Below are positions 147-8,468 of a DNA stretch of 64,000 nucleotides, one piece after another (the first letter of the stretch is position 1; each line of letters starts with the position of its first letter). The stretch is from Candidatus Harrysmithiimonas galli (lineage in GTDB: Bacteria > Bacillota > Bacilli > CAJFEE01): NCBI GenBank assembly GCA_904373265.1, contig CAJFEE010000013.1, forward strand, positions 1 to 64,000, given 5' to 3'. The position numbers and the translations under genes are program-made. The notes below the pieces were generated by a model. The model did not search any database. It had not been told where the DNA came from and worked only from the letters and a program-made list of their open reading frames with translations.

Positions 147-1655
147 CTATTTTTGAACAAGTACATCATTTATGCTAACGCCACTTTTAGCAAATATTTT
201 TGTCAAATTAGTTTGGAAACAATTTGCATTATAGTTGCTTAGTTTCACAATAATCAGTTTACTTTTTGCTCGCGTGACAGCAACATAATGATTACATAAG
301 CTTGAAATATCTGACAGACGATAATCTTCTGCAAAAATAATCACTTGTTCAAATTCCAATCCTTTTGAAGAGTGAAAAGTAATAGCGATATGCTGATATT
401 TTTCTGGCTCAAAAGCAACATGATACTTTTCATCTGTTATTGTTTCAAACAATTTTTTCAAGTGTTCACCTTTTGTTGCGTATCCCAAATATGTTGCCAA
501 AGCATTAGTCGACGAATAAAAACTATCTTCATCATCTATCGATTGTTCAATTTTTTTAAGCATTCTCTTAATAGCGGATACTAATTTGCGAGTTTCATTT
601 CCTTCAACAGGAATCTCAGAAATTAAATCATAGGCAGAATATTTTTCAATTATTAAATATTTTGCTATCGCAGAGTATAGCCATGCTGTATCTGTCGTAA
701 TTTCATCAATAGGCGTTTGAGGAATATAGGTATAATTTACGCCGTTTAACGATAATTCTCCCGCCCCTAACCTTGCGTTATCATTACTGAAACGTAATAG
801 TGCAGACTTTTTATTAGGGTCTATATATTTCAAAACCTCTGTCGGCCATGATGTTGTTGTAGTAGATAACCAAAGAATGTTATTTAATTCTTTTATTGGG
901 GAATACAATTTGCGTGTTTCCTCATATAACAAATTAGAATAGTTCTGTATCTGTTTGCACGACCGAAAATTGTCTCCCATAAATTTGGTGGTAAAATTGT
1001 TCTTATTCCAAATACTTACAAACGCTTCTGGATATGCTCCACGCCAAATGTAAATGGATTGTTTTTCATCACCGACCACAAATGTTTCAATTTTCAATGT
1101 GTCACATAGATACATAAACAATTTGTGCATTGATTTATCGCAATCTTGGTATTCATCAATATATATTTTGAAATATTTTGCTTGAAGAAACAATCTGCAA
1201 GCAACAGATTTTTCGACTATTTCTTGAGCCAACTCAAAGATAAAGTTCTTCTTATTATCAATATATGAGCAAAGTATTCCTTCTGTTTTTATTTTCTCAA
1301 TAGCGGCTTGGAATGTGTCTACTTTTGCTTCCTTTGAATAGTCAGTACTCATGTCCAAGTCATAATCAGAACCATACACATCCTTCATAAAAGGTTTTAT
1401 AATTTCTTCAATCGCAAAGCTATTGTTTGTACCTATAAAATGCCGAGTAACATCAACCGATAATCTGTCTTTAATTTCTTGTGCTGCCTTAATTGTAAAT
1501 GTAATGGCGGCAATTACTTTGTGAGTGCGGTTTTCATTTATTTCTTTTGCAATCTTGCTTACCATTGTATGTGTTTTGCCTGTACCCGCACTTGCTCTGA
1601 CAATTAAATTGCCAGAGGTATTTACGATTTCTTCTTGAACGGGAGATAATTTCAT
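147..1655 (-). CDS. gajB: Gabija helicase GajB (UvrD-like superfamily 1)
   Basis: A 502-residue UvrD/Rep-type superfamily 1 DNA helicase. Walker A is ASAGTGKT at about residue 21. Walker B is IYIDEYQDCD. Later motifs are VGDEKQSIYIWRGA, the FRSC segment, FHSSKGLEF and YVAVTRAKSKL near the C-terminus. The length fits GajB (about 500 residues), shorter than housekeeping UvrD/PcrA (over 700). It directly follows an OLD-type ATPase-TOPRIM nuclease, with the ATGA 4-base overlap typical of coupled translation. In Gabija, GajA and GajB assemble into one anti-phage complex that attacks DNA when nucleotide levels fall. The pairing and lengths make the assignment firm; activity is inferred. It is the last gene of a four-gene operon. 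Confidence 0.85.
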   Translation of the reverse strand: MKLSPVQEEIVNTSGNLIVRASAGTGKTHTMVSKIAKEINENRTHKVIAAITFTIKAAQEIKDRLSVDVTRHFIGTNNSFAIEEIIKPFMKDVYGSDYDLDMSTDYSKEAKVDTFQAAIEKIKTEGILCSYIDNKKNFIFELAQEIVEKSVACRLFLQAKYFKIYIDEYQDCDKSMHKLFMYLCDTLKIETFVVGDEKQSIYIWRGAYPEAFVSIWNKNNFTTKFMGDNFRSCKQIQNYSNLLYEETRKLYSPIKELNNILWLSTTTTSWPTEVLKYIDPNKKSALLRFSNDNARLGAGELSLNGVNYTYIPQTPIDEITTDTAWLYSAIAKYLIIEKYSAYDLISEIPVEGNETRKLVSAIKRMLKKIEQSIDDEDSFYSSTNALATYLGYATKGEHLKKLFETITDEKYHVAFEPEKYQHIAITFHSSKGLEFEQVIIFAEDYRLSDISSLCNHYVAVTRAKSKLIIVKLSNYNANCFQTNLTKIFAKSGVSINDVLVQK

Positions 1656-3331
1656 TCAGCAACCTCCTTCAAACACGCAAAGTTATAATGGTTATATATT
1701 GTTCTGCAATCTGTGTCAGTAAGTTTTTCAATTAATTCTACCATATGGTAATGTTTTGAATCCTGCAAATAATCAACAGGTGAGGATTCTCCTAATAAAG
1801 TAGATAGCCTATCATGCATTACTTCATCTAAATCGTTTTCTAAATCCACTTTGGATAAGAAAATACTATATTCACTGCGTATTTTATCAAGAGTTTTTAT
1901 ATTTGCGTTATATAATGCCCGCTTTGCCGATACAGACTTTTCTTGGATTTGCTCAATAGGCAGCAATTCCTTTCCAATATAATTATTACAGCGTGAAAAA
2001 CCTAATACACTGTATGTACCTTTGCCCTTTACAGCTCTCAAATCATTGTCAGTTTTAATAACATTAAATATTTCAAGTTTATTTAATATAGAAAAATACA
2101 TACTAAATCCCACACCATCAACAGGCAGGATATAAATCCCATCCGCTTCATAAAACGGGTGTACTACTGACAGAACTTTACTGAACAGCATATGCTCAGA
2201 TGGACCTTCTACCAAGAGAACTTTGTTGGCGAAAATCGCTTCAGATAAACAGCGATTAAGCAGTTTTCTTGCTTTTTCATAATTCTCTGGAACTTTGTAG
2301 AAAGTGCTGATGCCATTGATTTTTCTGTCACTGTATATCCGAACTAAATTCACATCATCCATTTCATAAAGGATAAATGGAGAATGCGTTGTAACAAACA
2401 GATATGTGTATTTATTGTTTGTAAAAAGAATTTGTGACAACGCAATCTGCATAGATTTGTGCAAATGATTTTCTGGCTCTTCAATTAAAAAGAGTGTTAT
2501 TTTTTTCTCCGCATTTTCATCTGCCAAAATATCAAAAATCGAGTAGGCTAACAGCTTTTTCCGTCCTTCCCCAGCGGTTGGATATAAGTTTTCATCATCG
2601 TCTTGCTTGATATACGGGATAATATTTGAATATAGACCTTTAACAGCAATCTCAGATTTGATTGATACCGAGATTCCTTCATCACGGAACTTTTGATATT
2701 CTGGCGTAAGTTTTTCCTCAAATTCCTTAATCCCCGATAAGGAAGATATATGGGTATTTAACTCATCAACAGCTTTTTGAATATTCGTCAAAACTACCTT
2801 ATCATCATCATTTTCATTTTTTATTAGTTGACTTACATTCTTTTTGAATAACGAATACAAATCCACATATGAATCGATATAAATTACATTGAATACATAG
2901 TCAATTTCGTAAAGATACCCTCGTTGCTTCATTTCCTGAAGATTGTCTAAATCTCCGCCCCAATATAGTATTGGTAACGCAAGCAACTCGCTTTTATTGT
3001 ATTCGGCAAGTAATTTTATATAGACATTATTATGTTTGCTTTGTAAAGCCCCTTTGAGTTGAGCACGAAGTTTTTGACAGTCGCTATTAGCAGTGTCGCT
3101 TATGTCTAAGGTCACAATAATCTCAATTGGCTTTTCAATCTGCTTGTTATGAAAGTCAGAGTCTGCAAAATTTAGCCTCCGTATATCTTTATCAAACACA
3201 TAACGCAGTGCATATAAAAAATTTGTTTTTCCAACATCGTTTAGCCCAAAGAAAATATTCTTGTTTGATAAATTCAACTCAATATCTTCAAAGTTTCTAA
3301 AATTCTTTATTGTAATAGATTCAAACTTCAT
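1652..3331 (-). CDS. gajA: Gabija nuclease GajA (OLD-family ATPase with TOPRIM domain)
   Basis: A 559-residue protein with an N-terminal SMC/RecF-like ATPase (Walker A GLNDVGKTN near residue 33; Walker B LIEEPENHLH; then VTTHSPF) and a C-terminal TOPRIM nuclease domain (VLLVEGPSEHMLF, then PVDGVG and IKTDNDL). This is the architecture of GajA, the sequence-specific nickase/nuclease of Gabija, and the length fits. An ATG four codons further upstream is possible, but the internal ATG at 3331 has GGAGG at the right distance and overlaps the abiEii stop as ATGA, so I use it. An OLD nuclease of another system is possible, but the adjacent UvrD-like gene argues for Gabija. Confidence 0.85.
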   Translation of the reverse strand: MKFESITIKNFRNFEDIELNLSNKNIFFGLNDVGKTNFLYALRYVFDKDIRRLNFADSDFHNKQIEKPIEIIVTLDISDTANSDCQKLRAQLKGALQSKHNNVYIKLLAEYNKSELLALPILYWGGDLDNLQEMKQRGYLYEIDYVFNVIYIDSYVDLYSLFKKNVSQLIKNENDDDKVVLTNIQKAVDELNTHISSLSGIKEFEEKLTPEYQKFRDEGISVSIKSEIAVKGLYSNIIPYIKQDDDENLYPTAGEGRKKLLAYSIFDILADENAEKKITLFLIEEPENHLHKSMQIALSQILFTNNKYTYLFVTTHSPFILYEMDDVNLVRIYSDRKINGISTFYKVPENYEKARKLLNRCLSEAIFANKVLLVEGPSEHMLFSKVLSVVHPFYEADGIYILPVDGVGFSMYFSILNKLEIFNVIKTDNDLRAVKGKGTYSVLGFSRCNNYIGKELLPIEQIQEKSVSAKRALYNANIKTLDKIRSEYSIFLSKVDLENDLDEVMHDRLSTLLGESSPVDYLQDSKHYHMVELIEKLTDTDCRTIYNHYNFACLKEVAE

Positions 3332-4227
3332 AATGACCTCCATCCACTAATTGTAGTCCACTGTTTTTGCCATTCATCCTCATTCACAATCGAATCGAAT
3401 ACAGGCTCAAGGAAAGTCTGAATTGCCTGAATGACTACTGAAAACGCAAGCGTATCGTCTTTTATTGTTTTCAAAAAGTTTTTCCACCGCTTTTGCATAT
3501 CCTCGTCTTCGGCAAGTGAAACAAGCCGCTTAAAGCTATCTTTATTGTAGGGAGTACCACGACGCTTCAATGTTTTAAAGATAGCAGATTGTAGTTTTGC
3601 TCCCTCAAAATCGAATGTCCTCGAAAGATAATAAATGTCATAAAAATCTTTCATTCTGCTTGTCAGTTCAAACCGTTGCAGTATGGCATCAAACTTTTCG
3701 GCTATGGTGCTTTCAAGGGAATAGGTTTTGATGATAGGAGCCTCAAAGTCTGGAAGTTGCGTATTGATTTTTCGGTGTTCTGGCGTTGGTACAACAACAT
3801 CGCCTACGCCTATGTCAATATTAAATGGTACACGAACATTTTTGATTTGTGCGATAATCTGTGTGCTGATACCGTGGTACTTCCTCTGCGGGGAAATTTC
3901 CTCAAAGCACTGTGCCGTCATCGTAATGTAGTCATTGCCTGTAGGTGTATCTATAATTTTGCAAATCAAATCCTTAACTGTATCTAATGAGTTTTCATAC
4001 CCAATAAGTAGAAAGTCAACATCAATCGTCGCTCGGCTTTCAAAGTTTGTCAAAGTATAGATGAACAAACCGCCTTTCAATATCAGAAAATCATCATAGC
4101 CAGACTTGGAAAGCTTGCGCAGAAATTCTTCCTGTACAAAAAGCTGTAGGCACTGCTGATAGGTGATACCAGAAGCCTTTGCCTTATTTTTCAGCTTTGC
4201 CAGAACAGAAGCTGCTATATCCGCCAT
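3328..4227 (-). CDS. abiEii: AbiEii nucleotidyltransferase toxin
   Basis: A 299-residue nucleotidyltransferase of the AbiEii/AbiGii toxin family (DUF1814). Near residue 50 it has the KGG segment (LILKGGLFIYTL), followed by the metal-binding DVDF (ATIDVDFLL). Later it has SLESTIAEKFDAI, the usual conserved lysine region, and MKDFYDIYYL. AbiEii enzymes are growth-arresting toxins; characterised relatives add nucleotides to tRNA 3' ends. The start chosen is the ATG whose A is the last base of the abiEi stop (TAATG), preceded by GGAGTG. The overlap with abiEi upstream and gajA downstream implies one polycistronic message. The toxin role is inferred from the family. Confidence 0.85.
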   Translation of the reverse strand: MADIAASVLAKLKNKAKASGITYQQCLQLFVQEEFLRKLSKSGYDDFLILKGGLFIYTLTNFESRATIDVDFLLIGYENSLDTVKDLICKIIDTPTGNDYITMTAQCFEEISPQRKYHGISTQIIAQIKNVRVPFNIDIGVGDVVVPTPEHRKINTQLPDFEAPIIKTYSLESTIAEKFDAILQRFELTSRMKDFYDIYYLSRTFDFEGAKLQSAIFKTLKRRGTPYNKDSFKRLVSLAEDEDMQKRWKNFLKTIKDDTLAFSVVIQAIQTFLEPVFDSIVNEDEWQKQWTTISGWRSL

Positions 4228-4835
4228 TATAACCACACTCCTATCAAATCGTTTACTTTCTTTTGCACTCTCAATGCTTTTGCATATTCCATAAGGTTAG
4301 GGATATTTTTTTGAGGGTCTTTTACATAGTTCTGAATTGCCTTATTGAAAATTTCCTTATCTATTTTACTCATATTTCGTAGGACATCGCAAACAGTACG
4401 GTCACGGTCATATATGCGAACTTTTGTAAACTCGATAATACCGTCCGTCTCGCCAAGAGAGAGCAACGCTGGCTCTACTCGGTATGCCTTGACAAAAGGA
4501 TAATCAATATTCGTTCGCTGTCGGGAAGTATTTTTATCAACAGTAATATTCCATTCCGCAGGGTTTCTGTCGCTGTACTTATAATAAAACAGAGCCGTTT
4601 CCATACAAAATACTGCATCGGGAAAAAGGCTATTGATTATAGCAACCTCACTTGTACCGTAATCTTCAATCCAATGATAATAACCTCGCTTGACCTTTTC
4701 AATCAAACCTTCGTCCAACATTCGCTGAATATCTCTATAGTACAGCTTTTCCTTATTCAGTTGGGCTGTTGTCATCGTAAAATTATAATTCAAGAAGATT
4801 TTACCGAGAAATGTTTTATCTTGTTCACTAAGCAT
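4227..4835 (-). CDS. abiEi: AbiEi antitoxin and likely autorepressor
   Basis: A 202-residue AbiEi-family antitoxin, first gene of the operon. The N-terminal about 60 residues look like the winged-helix AbiEi domain (TTAQLNKEKLYYRDIQRML, then IEKVKRGYYHW). The C-terminal part has the usual antitoxin features (IINSLFPDAVFCMETALFYY, RIYDRDRTVCDVLR). Known AbiEi proteins repress their own promoter and neutralise AbiEii. The start has GAGGTG seven bases upstream. A promoter at 4894-4922 and two near-identical 12-base repeats around it fit autorepression. Genomes often carry abiEi-abiEii as an isolated pair; here the pair leads directly into gajAB. Confidence 0.85.
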   Translation of the reverse strand: MLSEQDKTFLGKIFLNYNFTMTTAQLNKEKLYYRDIQRMLDEGLIEKVKRGYYHWIEDYGTSEVAIINSLFPDAVFCMETALFYYKYSDRNPAEWNITVDKNTSRQRTNIDYPFVKAYRVEPALLSLGETDGIIEFTKVRIYDRDRTVCDVLRNMSKIDKEIFNKAIQNYVKDPQKNIPNLMEYAKALRVQKKVNDLIGVWL

Positions 4836-4872: not shown

Positions 4873-4884
4873 TTCGGTGGTGTG
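4873..4884. promoter_or_regulatory. Possible AbiEi operator half, downstream copy
   Basis: The 12 bases TTCGGTGGTGTG match 11 of 12 with the copy at 4950-4961 in the same orientation. They lie just downstream of the -10 box of the abiE-gaj promoter. Repeats around an antitoxin promoter are typical binding sites of the autorepressor. Binding is an inference. Confidence 0.4.
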
Positions 4885-4893
4885 TTTTAATAC

Positions 4894-4949: not shown

Positions 4950-4961
4950 TTCGGTTGTGTG
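4950..4961. promoter_or_regulatory. Possible AbiEi operator half, upstream copy
   Basis: The 12 bases TTCGGTTGTGTG repeat the 4873-4884 element with one mismatch, 77 bases away, upstream of the -35 box. The two copies bracket the promoter. Confidence 0.4.
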
Positions 4962-4970
4962 GTTTAGTGT

Positions 4971-5020: not shown

Positions 5021-5389
5021 TTAGACAGCAATTTGAAATTTTGTAGAAGCGATAGCATACAGATTTATTGTTCGTTTTGTCCTGCCAACCTCGATAGAAT
5101 AAGGCTTTTCGGCACTTTCCGCATTATCAGTTTCATCATATTTTTTGATTTTCTCAAAGGTCGAAAAGCTATGTACCTTAAAACCAAAAACCTCACGCTT
5201 GTCCTCATATTTGATAGATTGGAACATTTCCGTTGCTTCTGTAGGTAGAGAAGATGTCACAACCAACTTGTGCCATCTTTTTCATTGGTTTTTCCCTATA
5301 AAAATGATGGCGTTCTTGTGTTTACAGTCCTGAGATTCTTCAAGCAAAAACAGCATCTTCATAAATGGTGTGTTATCTCCAAACAGATT
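5021..5389 (-). pseudogene. Mobile-element gene remnant, right copy, interrupted by a stop codon
   Basis: The minus strand holds an intact 81-residue stretch (5021-5266, possible TTG start) containing PTEATEMF, VFGFKVHSF and EVGRTKRTINLYAI. Translation in the same frame continues upstream as KRWHKLVV, then meets an in-frame TGA (5282-5284). Beyond that stop it continues as FMKMLFLLEESQDCKHKNAI and FIGKNQ back to about 5389. Further upstream a second frame reads IAIEDEGKLTGYSE, suggesting a frameshift. This looks like a decayed longer gene. I do not recognise the family. It resembles the fragment at 1-98, so the element may have carried tandem paralogues. An alternative is that only the 81-residue part is a real small gene. 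Confidence 0.5.
5220..5246. repeat. 27-bp direct repeat, right copy
   Basis: Identical over 27 bases to 73-99, in the same orientation. The match ends at both edges (a versus t on one side, c versus a on the other). The repeat falls on the PTEATEMF codons of both related fragments. Confidence 0.85.
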
Positions 5390-5576: not shown

Positions 5577-6519
5577 ATTTCAATACATCTTATGTTACGG
5601 TTCAACATCATTCGCTACAATGTCAATTGTTACATTTCAATACATCTTATGTTGCGGTTCAACATAAACAAGGATATTGATTCCACAAGAACCAATTTGA
5701 ATTTCAATACATCTTATGTTGCGGTTCAACACCAACCCAATAGCTTCCATCAATTCCATAAAAGTATTTCAATACATCTTATGTTGCGGTTCAACCGCAT
5801 TTAGCTTACCTATTTGTACCCAAAACAAATAATTTCAATACATCTTATGTTGCGGTTCAACCACAAAGACAAATTCCGCACCGACAGCAACGATTGTATT
5901 TCAATACATCTTATGTTGCGGTTCAACATCAATCAGCTCATTCGGACTGCTTTTCGATTAAGGAATTTCAATACATCTTATGTTGCGGTTCAACGTCATT
6001 GCTTCTATGCTTAAAACTTTGTTTGATGGATTTCAATACATCTTATGTTGCGGTTCAACTCGATTCCGCCAATAATATCTTGTGCTGTTACTAGATTTCA
6101 ATACATCTTATGTTGCGGTTCAACAGGAGCACATCCGTCAGAAATAATCACCTACGTAAAATTTCAATACATCTTATGTTGCGGTTCAACACTGATTATT
6201 TAATTTTGGATTGTTTAAATGCGTATATTTCAATACATCTTATGTTGCGGTTCAACATTGGTAAAAAATCGCTATACAATCTGATTTTTGAATTTCAATA
6301 CATCTTATGTTGCGGTTCAACGTACAACTTACTTACAAAACTCATCGCTGTATTCAGATTTCAATACATCTTATGTTGCGGTTCAACTTGGCGGGGTTAA
6401 TTAAGTACGCTGTAGAAAAATTTATTTCAATACATCTTATGTTGCGGTTCAACAAAGTGTACATTCAGATATCGGAGAAGGTACACATGATTTCAATACA
6501 TCTTATGTTGCGGTTCAAC
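5577..6519 (-). CRISPR. CRISPR array, 15 repeats and 14 spacers, no adjacent cas genes
   Basis: The 30-base repeat reads ATTTCAATACATCTT then ATGTTGCGGTTCAAC on the plus strand. Copies start at 5577, 5634, 5701, 5766, 5832, 5898, 5965, 6030, 6095, 6161, 6227, 6292, 6358, 6424 and 6490. Spacers are 35-37 bases except the first (5607-5633), which is 27. The leftmost repeat has one substitution (GTTACGG for GTTGCGG), marking the old, trailer end. On the minus strand the repeat begins GTTGAAC and ends ATTGAAAT, as in many type I-B arrays, whose crRNA 5' handle is the last eight repeat bases. This orientation and the promoter at 6547-6575 put the leader on the right. No cas gene lies within the window on either side, so Cas proteins must come from elsewhere, if present. 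Confidence 0.97.
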
Positions 6520-6720
6520 TTTGTGGTTATACATTTTACTTTTTTCATCATATCAAAAAAGCACTGAAGTTACAATATTTTCCATTATTTTTTCCAATGA
6601 TAAGCGCTGTTTGGGCAAAAATAAAAAAATAACATGGAAAGACCTGAAATACCAAGTTTTTCTCTTTGTTCTTCTATTTTTCAATTGGAAAAATTTTTCC
6701 ATATGCTCTCTTTAATTTTA
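6520..6720 (-). promoter_or_regulatory. CRISPR leader with promoter
   Basis: This AT-rich stretch borders the perfect, young end of the array. On the minus strand it carries -35 TTGTAA (6570-6575) and -10 TATGAT (6547-6552), 17 bases apart. That would start pre-crRNA about 20 bases before the first repeat. The leader's outer limit is a guess. Confidence 0.6.
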
Positions 6721-7886
6721 ACAAAAACAATCACTTTCTTTATTTATCATAAATGTTGTTTTTTCCATTTTGTAAATGGCTCTTGTATGTAATCAAGTAA
6801 GCAGTTACCTCGTAAATCACTAGCTTCTTATGCCATCATGCATATTATTCAATGTAGGGCAATTCAATGATTGAATACAATATCTTGATTCTTCAAATTT
6901 TCCGATTTCAGATTATGCAAATTCAAACGAGGTAGGGTATAGTACCTTGTTATATTTTGAATATGCTGTTATATCCAGCAGACACAAAATATGGGTTTGT
7001 AAATGACATTGTAAGTATCCAAACCCTATGATTTTCCAATATCAAATCGTATATTCACCTATTTCTATGCTTTGTATCAGTTGGTTGCAAGTCATACAAG
7101 ATTATTATGCTTATAGTAAATCCATTTCCATTGTTTTCATAGATTCATTGTATACTCTATTTGATTCTCTCATTAAAACCTTTATTTGGCTTTTCACATC
7201 AATCCAAGTCATCTTGTCATGTAGATCTCTATTCTTTTAAAAATTATCCAATAAATATGGCTTAATTTTTACTTTTAAGTTTTCAGATTTTGTTTTCAAA
7301 CCGTTTATTACACTCTCTTATAAGCATGTTCCTGTTTTTTTCTATCTTGTACATTGAGAAATAAAAACATTTTAATTTCAGTGGACTTTCTATTTTTCTT
7401 CTTTCTTGATTGACCTTTGGTTTCAATTTTTTAAAAGAAATTCATATAACTTTTTGCTATATCTATTTCAAACACTCCTAATTTAACGACTTTCTATAGT
7501 CTCTAACTTTTCACCATGAATACTATCATGTTCTGATCACTTTTTACCCTTCACTCGTATACCTTTTACACAAATCCAGTGAATATCCATTGTTTGGCAT
7601 TTAAAACACAGCCTATCTCGTTAAAAGAGGTAATCTTTCTTTCCTATCTCTGCCACATTCACACCATAAATTTCGAACAATATTGGACTTTACTTTGTTT
7701 AAAAGTTCATTGATCCTACAAATGTCTTATTCATATAGTTTCTATGGATCAGAATGATTGATATCCTTCTTACTTCAAACTTTGCCTTATAATGAGGATA
7801 TCCTTAACTTCTTTTCATGATTTGTATATCCAAATCTATAATAGATTTTGACTGTTAAATTATTCCTTATCCAAAACAAAGAAAAG
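6721..7886. other. Gene-free AT-rich stretch
   Basis: No reading frame here looks like a real protein, and I see no tRNA or cas remnant. It lies between the CRISPR leader and the spoVT terminator, at one edge of the block that appears relocated relative to Bacillus. The short open frames are broken and unlike any family I know. It may be decayed DNA. Confidence 0.5.
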
Positions 7887-7926
7887 AAAAAACCTTCTTC
7901 ATATAACAAATGAAAGAAGGTTTTTT
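7887..7926 (-). terminator. Rho-independent terminator after spoVT
   Basis: A perfect hairpin with arms aaaaaaccttctt (7887-7899) and aagaaggtttttt (7914-7926), ending in T on the minus strand six bases beyond the spoVT stop. Confidence 0.85.
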
Positions 7927-7931
7927 CATTT

Positions 7932-8468
7932 TTATTGCTCCATTTGTCTGGCAAAAAAACTCGCTGCAATCTCAACCGCTTTCTTTTCCGTTTCAGTCAA
8001 TTTATTATCTTTAGACAGCAATATAACTGCACCAATCGGATCTCCACCTGCAACAATTGGACCAATTGCAAATGAGGTGTTACTTTCCTCTATTCCTTCA
8101 ACAAAAGCCGTTGTATCCTCTCCAGTTTGTAGCACAGATGTTCTACCTTCCATAACATTTTCTATGTACGGGCTAATATTTTTTTGATAATAATCTTTTT
8201 TTGAATGACCGATTGCAGCAATATAAGAATCTCGATCACAAATCAAAACCAAATGTCTAAAACTGTCATATAAAGCCTCTGCATATTCCTTAGCAAAATC
8301 ACTTAATTCCCGAATAGGAGAATATTTTTTTAAAATAACTTCTCCTTCTCGATCAACAAAAATTTCCAGTGGGTCACCTTCACGAATACGTAAAGTTCTG
8401 CGAATTTCTTTTGGAACAACTACACGTCCCAAATCATCAATACGTCTCACAATTCCTGTTGCCTTCAT
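7932..8468 (-). CDS. spoVT: Stage V sporulation transcription factor SpoVT
   Basis: A 178-residue AbrB-family regulator. Residues 1-50 form the swapped-hairpin DNA-binding domain (MKATGIVRRIDDLGRVVVPK, then EIRRTLRIREGDPLEIF). The rest is the GAF-like domain typical of SpoVT (CDRDSYIAAIGHSKKDYY, IGPIVAGGDPIGAVILLS). SpoVT acts in the forespore, tuning sigma-G-dependent genes and spore germination. As in Bacillus it follows mfd, but 314 bases separate them, so it probably has its own promoter. I could not identify a sigma-G promoter there. The length matches the family (178 in B. subtilis). Confidence 0.95.
   Translation of the reverse strand: MKATGIVRRIDDLGRVVVPKEIRRTLRIREGDPLEIFVDREGEVILKKYSPIRELSDFAKEYAEALYDSFRHLVLICDRDSYIAAIGHSKKDYYQKNISPYIENVMEGRTSVLQTGEDTTAFVEGIEESNTSFAIGPIVAGGDPIGAVILLSKDNKLTETEKKAVEIAASFFARQMEQ

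Follow-up and report, generated by a model that had tools for sequence, protein, structure and literature searches.

A Gabija operon headed by an AbiE toxin–antitoxin pair, a candidate portable leader of exchangeable defence cargo

The window analysed here, a 64,000-nucleotide stretch of Candidatus Harrysmithiimonas galli DNA, carries on its minus strand the gene order abiEi–abiEii–gajA–gajB, running from 4835 to 147 with overlaps of 1, 4 and 4 nt at successive junctions. These overlaps, proposed in the first-pass annotation, were borne out by the gene coordinates and by the junction letters, which are TAATG at abiEi/abiEii and ATGA at both abiEii/gajA and gajA/gajB. Tight gene spacing is frequent in bacterial genomes and alone is no proof of coupling. 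Alternative in-frame starts lie further 5′ (GTG at 4236 for abiEii, ATG at 3343 for gajA); the abiEii and gajA starts chosen in the first-pass annotation are preceded by ribosome-binding sites and are conserved in relatives.

Judged by profile and structure matches, all four proteins are canonical members of AbiE and Gabija, their conserved motifs intact. The gene abiEi (4227–4835, 202 aa) encodes a predicted antitoxin and DNA-binding autorepressor (PADLOC E=1.5e-68; Pfam AbiEi_4 matched only below the cut-off) with a DNA-binding N-terminus, immediately 5′ of the toxin gene. That toxin, AbiEii (3328–4227, 299 aa), is a nucleotidyltransferase of the type IV class (PADLOC E=6.4e-90; Pfam AbiEii E=4.7e-46) with motifs I–IV, and G52/G53, D69/D71, K178 and D194 are invariant among aligned relatives, these motif-region residues having been matched by eye to positions mutated in PMC3985639. 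AlphaFold modelled AbiEii poorly (pLDDT 44), and no conclusion is based on that model. GajA (1652–3331, 559 aa) combines an OLD-family ATPase with a TOPRIM nuclease (PADLOC E=5.6e-243; Pfam AAA_15 and OLD-like_TOPRIM; E=5.8e-151 to GajA of the solved Gabija complex in the PDB), with residues conserved in the alignment, and GajB (147–1655, 502 aa), whose ORF overlaps that of gajA, is a UvrD-like helicase (PADLOC E=1.6e-196; E=1.2e-99 to GajB of the same complex). The locus thus resembles known Gabija in having gajA and gajB present, adjacent and overlapping, with the solved Gabija complex as closest structural relative, but differs in that a toxin–antitoxin pair precedes gajAB, apparently in the same transcript, an arrangement absent from most gajAB loci examined.

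A consensus scan, in which promoter-like sites were no more frequent than in shuffled sequence, placed a putative promoter (TTGATT-17-TATAAT, 4922–4894) before abiEi, where a similar promoter occurs across related AbiE loci. The scan returned no minus-strand promoter-like site in 4363–2527, which covers the region immediately 5′ of gajA, in keeping with the single promoter claimed at first pass, and one weak terminator-like site in the operon, at 2159–2138 within gajA. Better support for the promoter comes from conserved half-sites around it: in the window, candidate operator half-sites lie just 3′ of the −10 element (ATTAAAACACAC, 4880–4891) and 5′ of the −35 element (ACTAAACCACAC, 4957–4968), both on the minus strand. 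Further 5′, a terminator-like hairpin (about 5012–4977, −24.4 kcal/mol, followed by TTTTT) is predicted to insulate the operon from upstream. The cassette is bounded by identical 27-bp direct repeats at 5220–5246 (left) and 73–99 (right), the left one lying within a small minus-strand ‘tail’ ORF (5021–5266) with relatives 5′ of abiE in four other loci (L132, L179, L185 and L187). Such repeats also bound the copy of the cassette at L018, where identity to the window stops at the left repeat and the flanking DNA beyond it differs. Immediately outside the left edge of the window cassette is a CRISPR array (5634–6519, plus strand) with 14 exact 30-nt repeats. At three loci the AbiE cassette has its left edge against the 3′ portion of a cotJC-like sporulation gene (L018, ~3084; L023, ~3126; L179, ~2904).

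Scanning genome contigs with a GajA alignment yielded 76 loci. As in the window, AbiE is directly 5′ of gajA in L018 (UBA1375), L019 (UBA7217), L049 (Anaerostipes hominis) and L023 (a Clostridia MAG), which makes five such loci with the window included. The abiEii–gajA junction is conserved in L018, L019 and L049, with AbiEii identities of 82–99%, and on these comparisons its conservation is beyond chance. Deletions break gajA and gajB in L049, and the junction together with the first part of gajA has been deleted from L023; both loci keep AbiE. About 60 other gajAB loci lack AbiE; scanning the genes upstream of the uncoupled gajA genes uncovered no hidden AbiE, the five gajAB loci examined from plasmid and phage collections, all on plasmids, had none, and viral contigs scanned with GajA contained no relatives. 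Upstream sequence of 500 nt or more was available for 66 gajA loci; in five of these a same-strand gene abuts or overlaps the gajA start, and that gene is AbiE in three and PezT in two. On the gajA tree all five AbiE-coupled genes, including that of the window, form a single clade with 100/100 support, for which the simplest account is one joining event followed by spread. The join proposed from the window alone is thus not confined to this strain, occurring in five loci with the window included, but probably with a single origin. Between the window and L018, gajB (147–1655 and 6677–8185, respectively) is 84% identical and gajA 99%, which suggests recombination within Gabija.

Another toxin–antitoxin pair is joined to Gabija as well. 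PezAT, of the epsilon/zeta type and composed of an HTH protein with a zeta toxin (Pfam E=1e-56 in L078), precedes gajAB in L078, L086 and L075, loci of Granulicatella and Streptococcus, overlapping gajA by 11 nt in L078 and L086 and separated from it by 33 nt in L075. As in the AbiE loci, the pair lies directly 5′ of gajA, but it belongs to a family unrelated to AbiE and is attached to another gajA lineage; because the two arrangements are independent, joining of a toxin–antitoxin pair to Gabija happened at least twice. In L025, a HipA_C-domain protein (2151–2975) lies 58 nt 5′ of gajA, possibly a third toxin–antitoxin family ahead of Gabija. A literature search, based mainly on material short of full text and with subscription papers and preprints outside its scope, returned, among the papers listed, no earlier account of an AbiE pair attached to Gabija or Lamassu.

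Searching the genomes of two orders and one class with AbiEii, plus wider regions, placed the window in an AbiE subclade of about 20 loci in which AbiEii identity is 77% or higher, a small sample of related loci of which several are MAG contigs. A scan of viral contigs with AbiEii added one further locus (L198). Members of this subclade head not only Gabija but also Lamassu, LmuA/MC3/ABC (ABC-3C-type), methylase–GHKL and methylase–HerA operons, through junctions as tight as that of Gabija but different from it. The cargo is Lamassu LmuA–LmuB in L130 and L131 (PADLOC E=1.7e-146 and 8.5e-247 for L130), and the first cargo codons of L186 are the same as in these two loci. L182 carries an LmuA-like protein, MC3 and an ATPase-like protein, its first gene recurring in L178, L187 and L198; L134 retains an LmuA-like fragment, L132 has a C5-methylase with a GHKL ATPase, and L179 a DNA methylase with HerA. 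Every identifiable cargo is a defence-type system. The end of abiEii varies with the cargo and in several classes holds the cargo’s ribosome-binding site; in the window the final abiEii codons (3328–3375, minus strand) contain GGAGG and the ATGA. A cargo is, or formerly was, present within about 25 nt in about 16 of 20 subclade loci, compared with 5–7 of about 25 AbiE loci outside, which are mostly solitary (Fisher p 2e-4 to 1e-3 when the outside group is taken as 24; the counts were made by hand, with judgement needed at broken or truncated loci). In L095 and L140, AbiE pairs of lower similarity (about 50% identity) lie directly 5′ of genes resembling type I restriction–modification by sequence; the genes 3′ of AbiE in L095, a phage-labelled fragment, are closely spaced.

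Comparison of near-identical fronts revealed where the cargos change. L131 and L178 are 95% identical across 2,065 bp, and L132 and L187 94.4% identical across 2,258 bp, before running into unrelated cargo; in both pairs identity is lost in the final 30–60 nt of abiEii. The loci coupled to Gabija fall in separate places on the AbiE tree (a single clade was rejected, AU p 9e-101) but form one clade on the gajA tree, indicating that front and cargo have been reassorted. Serine-recombinase-like sequences adjoin several AbiE loci. Among 400 sampled genomes of the window’s class, this AbiE subclade occurs only in the window genome, consistent with horizontal gain.

Half-sites of the ACTAAACCACAC type recur in 18 loci of the subclade at about −133/−55 and −100/−24, flanking the promoter. 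They number 41 where shuffled sequences would give 1.1, the pattern having been derived from the very sequences in which it was counted, and they are the same whatever the cargo. In Streptococcus agalactiae, AbiEi binds inverted repeats in the abiE promoter and represses it, and AbiE stabilises a plasmid (PMC3985639); for Serratia AbiE, published work indicates tRNA as the target of the toxin (PMC7725324). The window pair shares with the S. agalactiae system its bicistronic abiEi–abiEii order, conserved motifs and repeated candidate half-sites around the promoter, but differs from the bicistronic systems described in heading an operon that extends into variable defence cargo. The first-pass view that the arrangement is more than a neighbourhood effect holds up: the same join is present in further genomes, and a single putative operator–promoter region, itself conserved, appears to serve all four genes, which makes a role for AbiEi as regulator of Gabija plausible.

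The reading that we prefer, with a probability of roughly 0.55, is that AbiE, a portable and autorepressed pair, leads mobile cassettes whose defence cargo can be exchanged, and acts as their addiction module. Each cassette would comprise a conserved front, consisting of the promoter with its AbiEi operator sites, abiEi and abiEii, and a swappable cargo. By repressing its own promoter, AbiEi would set the level of the entire operon, cargo included, and AbiEii, if toxic and addictive, would make loss of the cassette costly and may contribute an abortive response. The cargo, Gabija in the window, would share a transcript with AbiE and probably be translationally coupled to it via the ribosome-binding site and ATGA in the abiEii 3′ end, and recombination with breakpoints in the final 30–60 nt of abiEii would swap one cargo for another. 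Both control of the cargo by AbiEi and stabilisation of the cassette by AbiEii are extrapolated from these genomic patterns together with the earlier AbiE experiments. Counting against a portable leader, L180, L184 and L185 carry AbiE without cargo, so that cargo is not required for AbiE to persist. The closest regulatory parallel is with the BrxR/CapW WYL-domain repressors, which co-localise with many defence systems (PMC9122601); there too one autorepressing regulator family stands before many defence types, but BrxR has no toxin partner, whereas the repressor here doubles as the antitoxin to a toxin, and that pair is joined to the cargo.

A rival account is passive hitch-hiking, in which the abiEii 3′ end is a favoured insertion place in a compact recombining mobile element and cargo uses the abiE promoter accidentally, with no functional interplay. 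The concentration of breakpoints at the abiEii end, the mosaicism of AbiE relative to cargo, the neighbouring recombinase-like sequences, and the persistence of AbiE without cargo or beside the decayed cargo of L049 and L023 all fit this account. We nevertheless consider it unlikely: the identifiable cargos are all of defence type, tight junctions formed separately for different cargos, several with a ribosome-binding site inside abiEii, AbiE beyond the subclade is mainly solitary, and a second toxin–antitoxin pair, PezAT, is likewise joined to gajA.

In a general guarding role, AbiEii would serve as a reserve abortive arm, set free once a phage blocks the operon, whether its expression or its function; silencing of any cargo would then kill or stall the cell. 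Such a role would explain why one pair leads several defence types and why the unrelated PezAT leads Gabija. It has a precedent in CreTA, which is reported to guard CRISPR–Cas (PMC10097628) and, like AbiE here, is a toxin–antitoxin pair tied to a defence system. The CreTA antitoxin, as described there, acts through the CRISPR effector, but we saw no comparable cargo dependence for AbiE: the half-sites are identical whatever the cargo, with no sign of cargo-dependent toxin control, and AbiE survives where the cargo is broken or missing (L049, L023, L180 and L185), which a toxin restrained by its cargo should not, arguing indirectly, from sequence, against silencing of the toxin by the defence system itself. 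A guard of this kind therefore seems quite improbable. A dedicated AbiE–Gabija system, its halves evolved specifically to work together as the first-pass annotation had supposed, could account for a junction kept within one gajA clade across several genomes, but we give it very little credence, and the comparisons favour a portable leader with exchangeable defence cargo over it, as the two were joined only once, nearly all Gabija lack AbiE, the AbiE partners are interchangeable, the same subclade heading other operons, the AbiE of Gabija-coupled loci is not one clade, and Gabija is broken with AbiE kept in two of the five loci.

A broader version of the portable-leader reading, which we hold tentatively and at somewhat less than even odds, is that the AbiE subclade is a general plug-in front end, an autoregulated toxin–antitoxin leader that would set the expression and protect the persistence of whichever defence cargo recombines into the abiEii 3′ end. 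The locus cautions that overlap in a single genome need not mean a dedicated partnership. It also offers a natural comparative set, with a single leader, four or five cargos at the least and near-identical fronts that bear different cargo, in which control, addiction and guarding could be separated. If a plug-in AbiE front end is correct, then together with PezAT–Gabija it would mean that toxin–antitoxin-led defence operons arise repeatedly, and it suggests a route by which compact defence systems moving between genomes may acquire regulation and stability, by splicing behind a ready-made toxin–antitoxin module.
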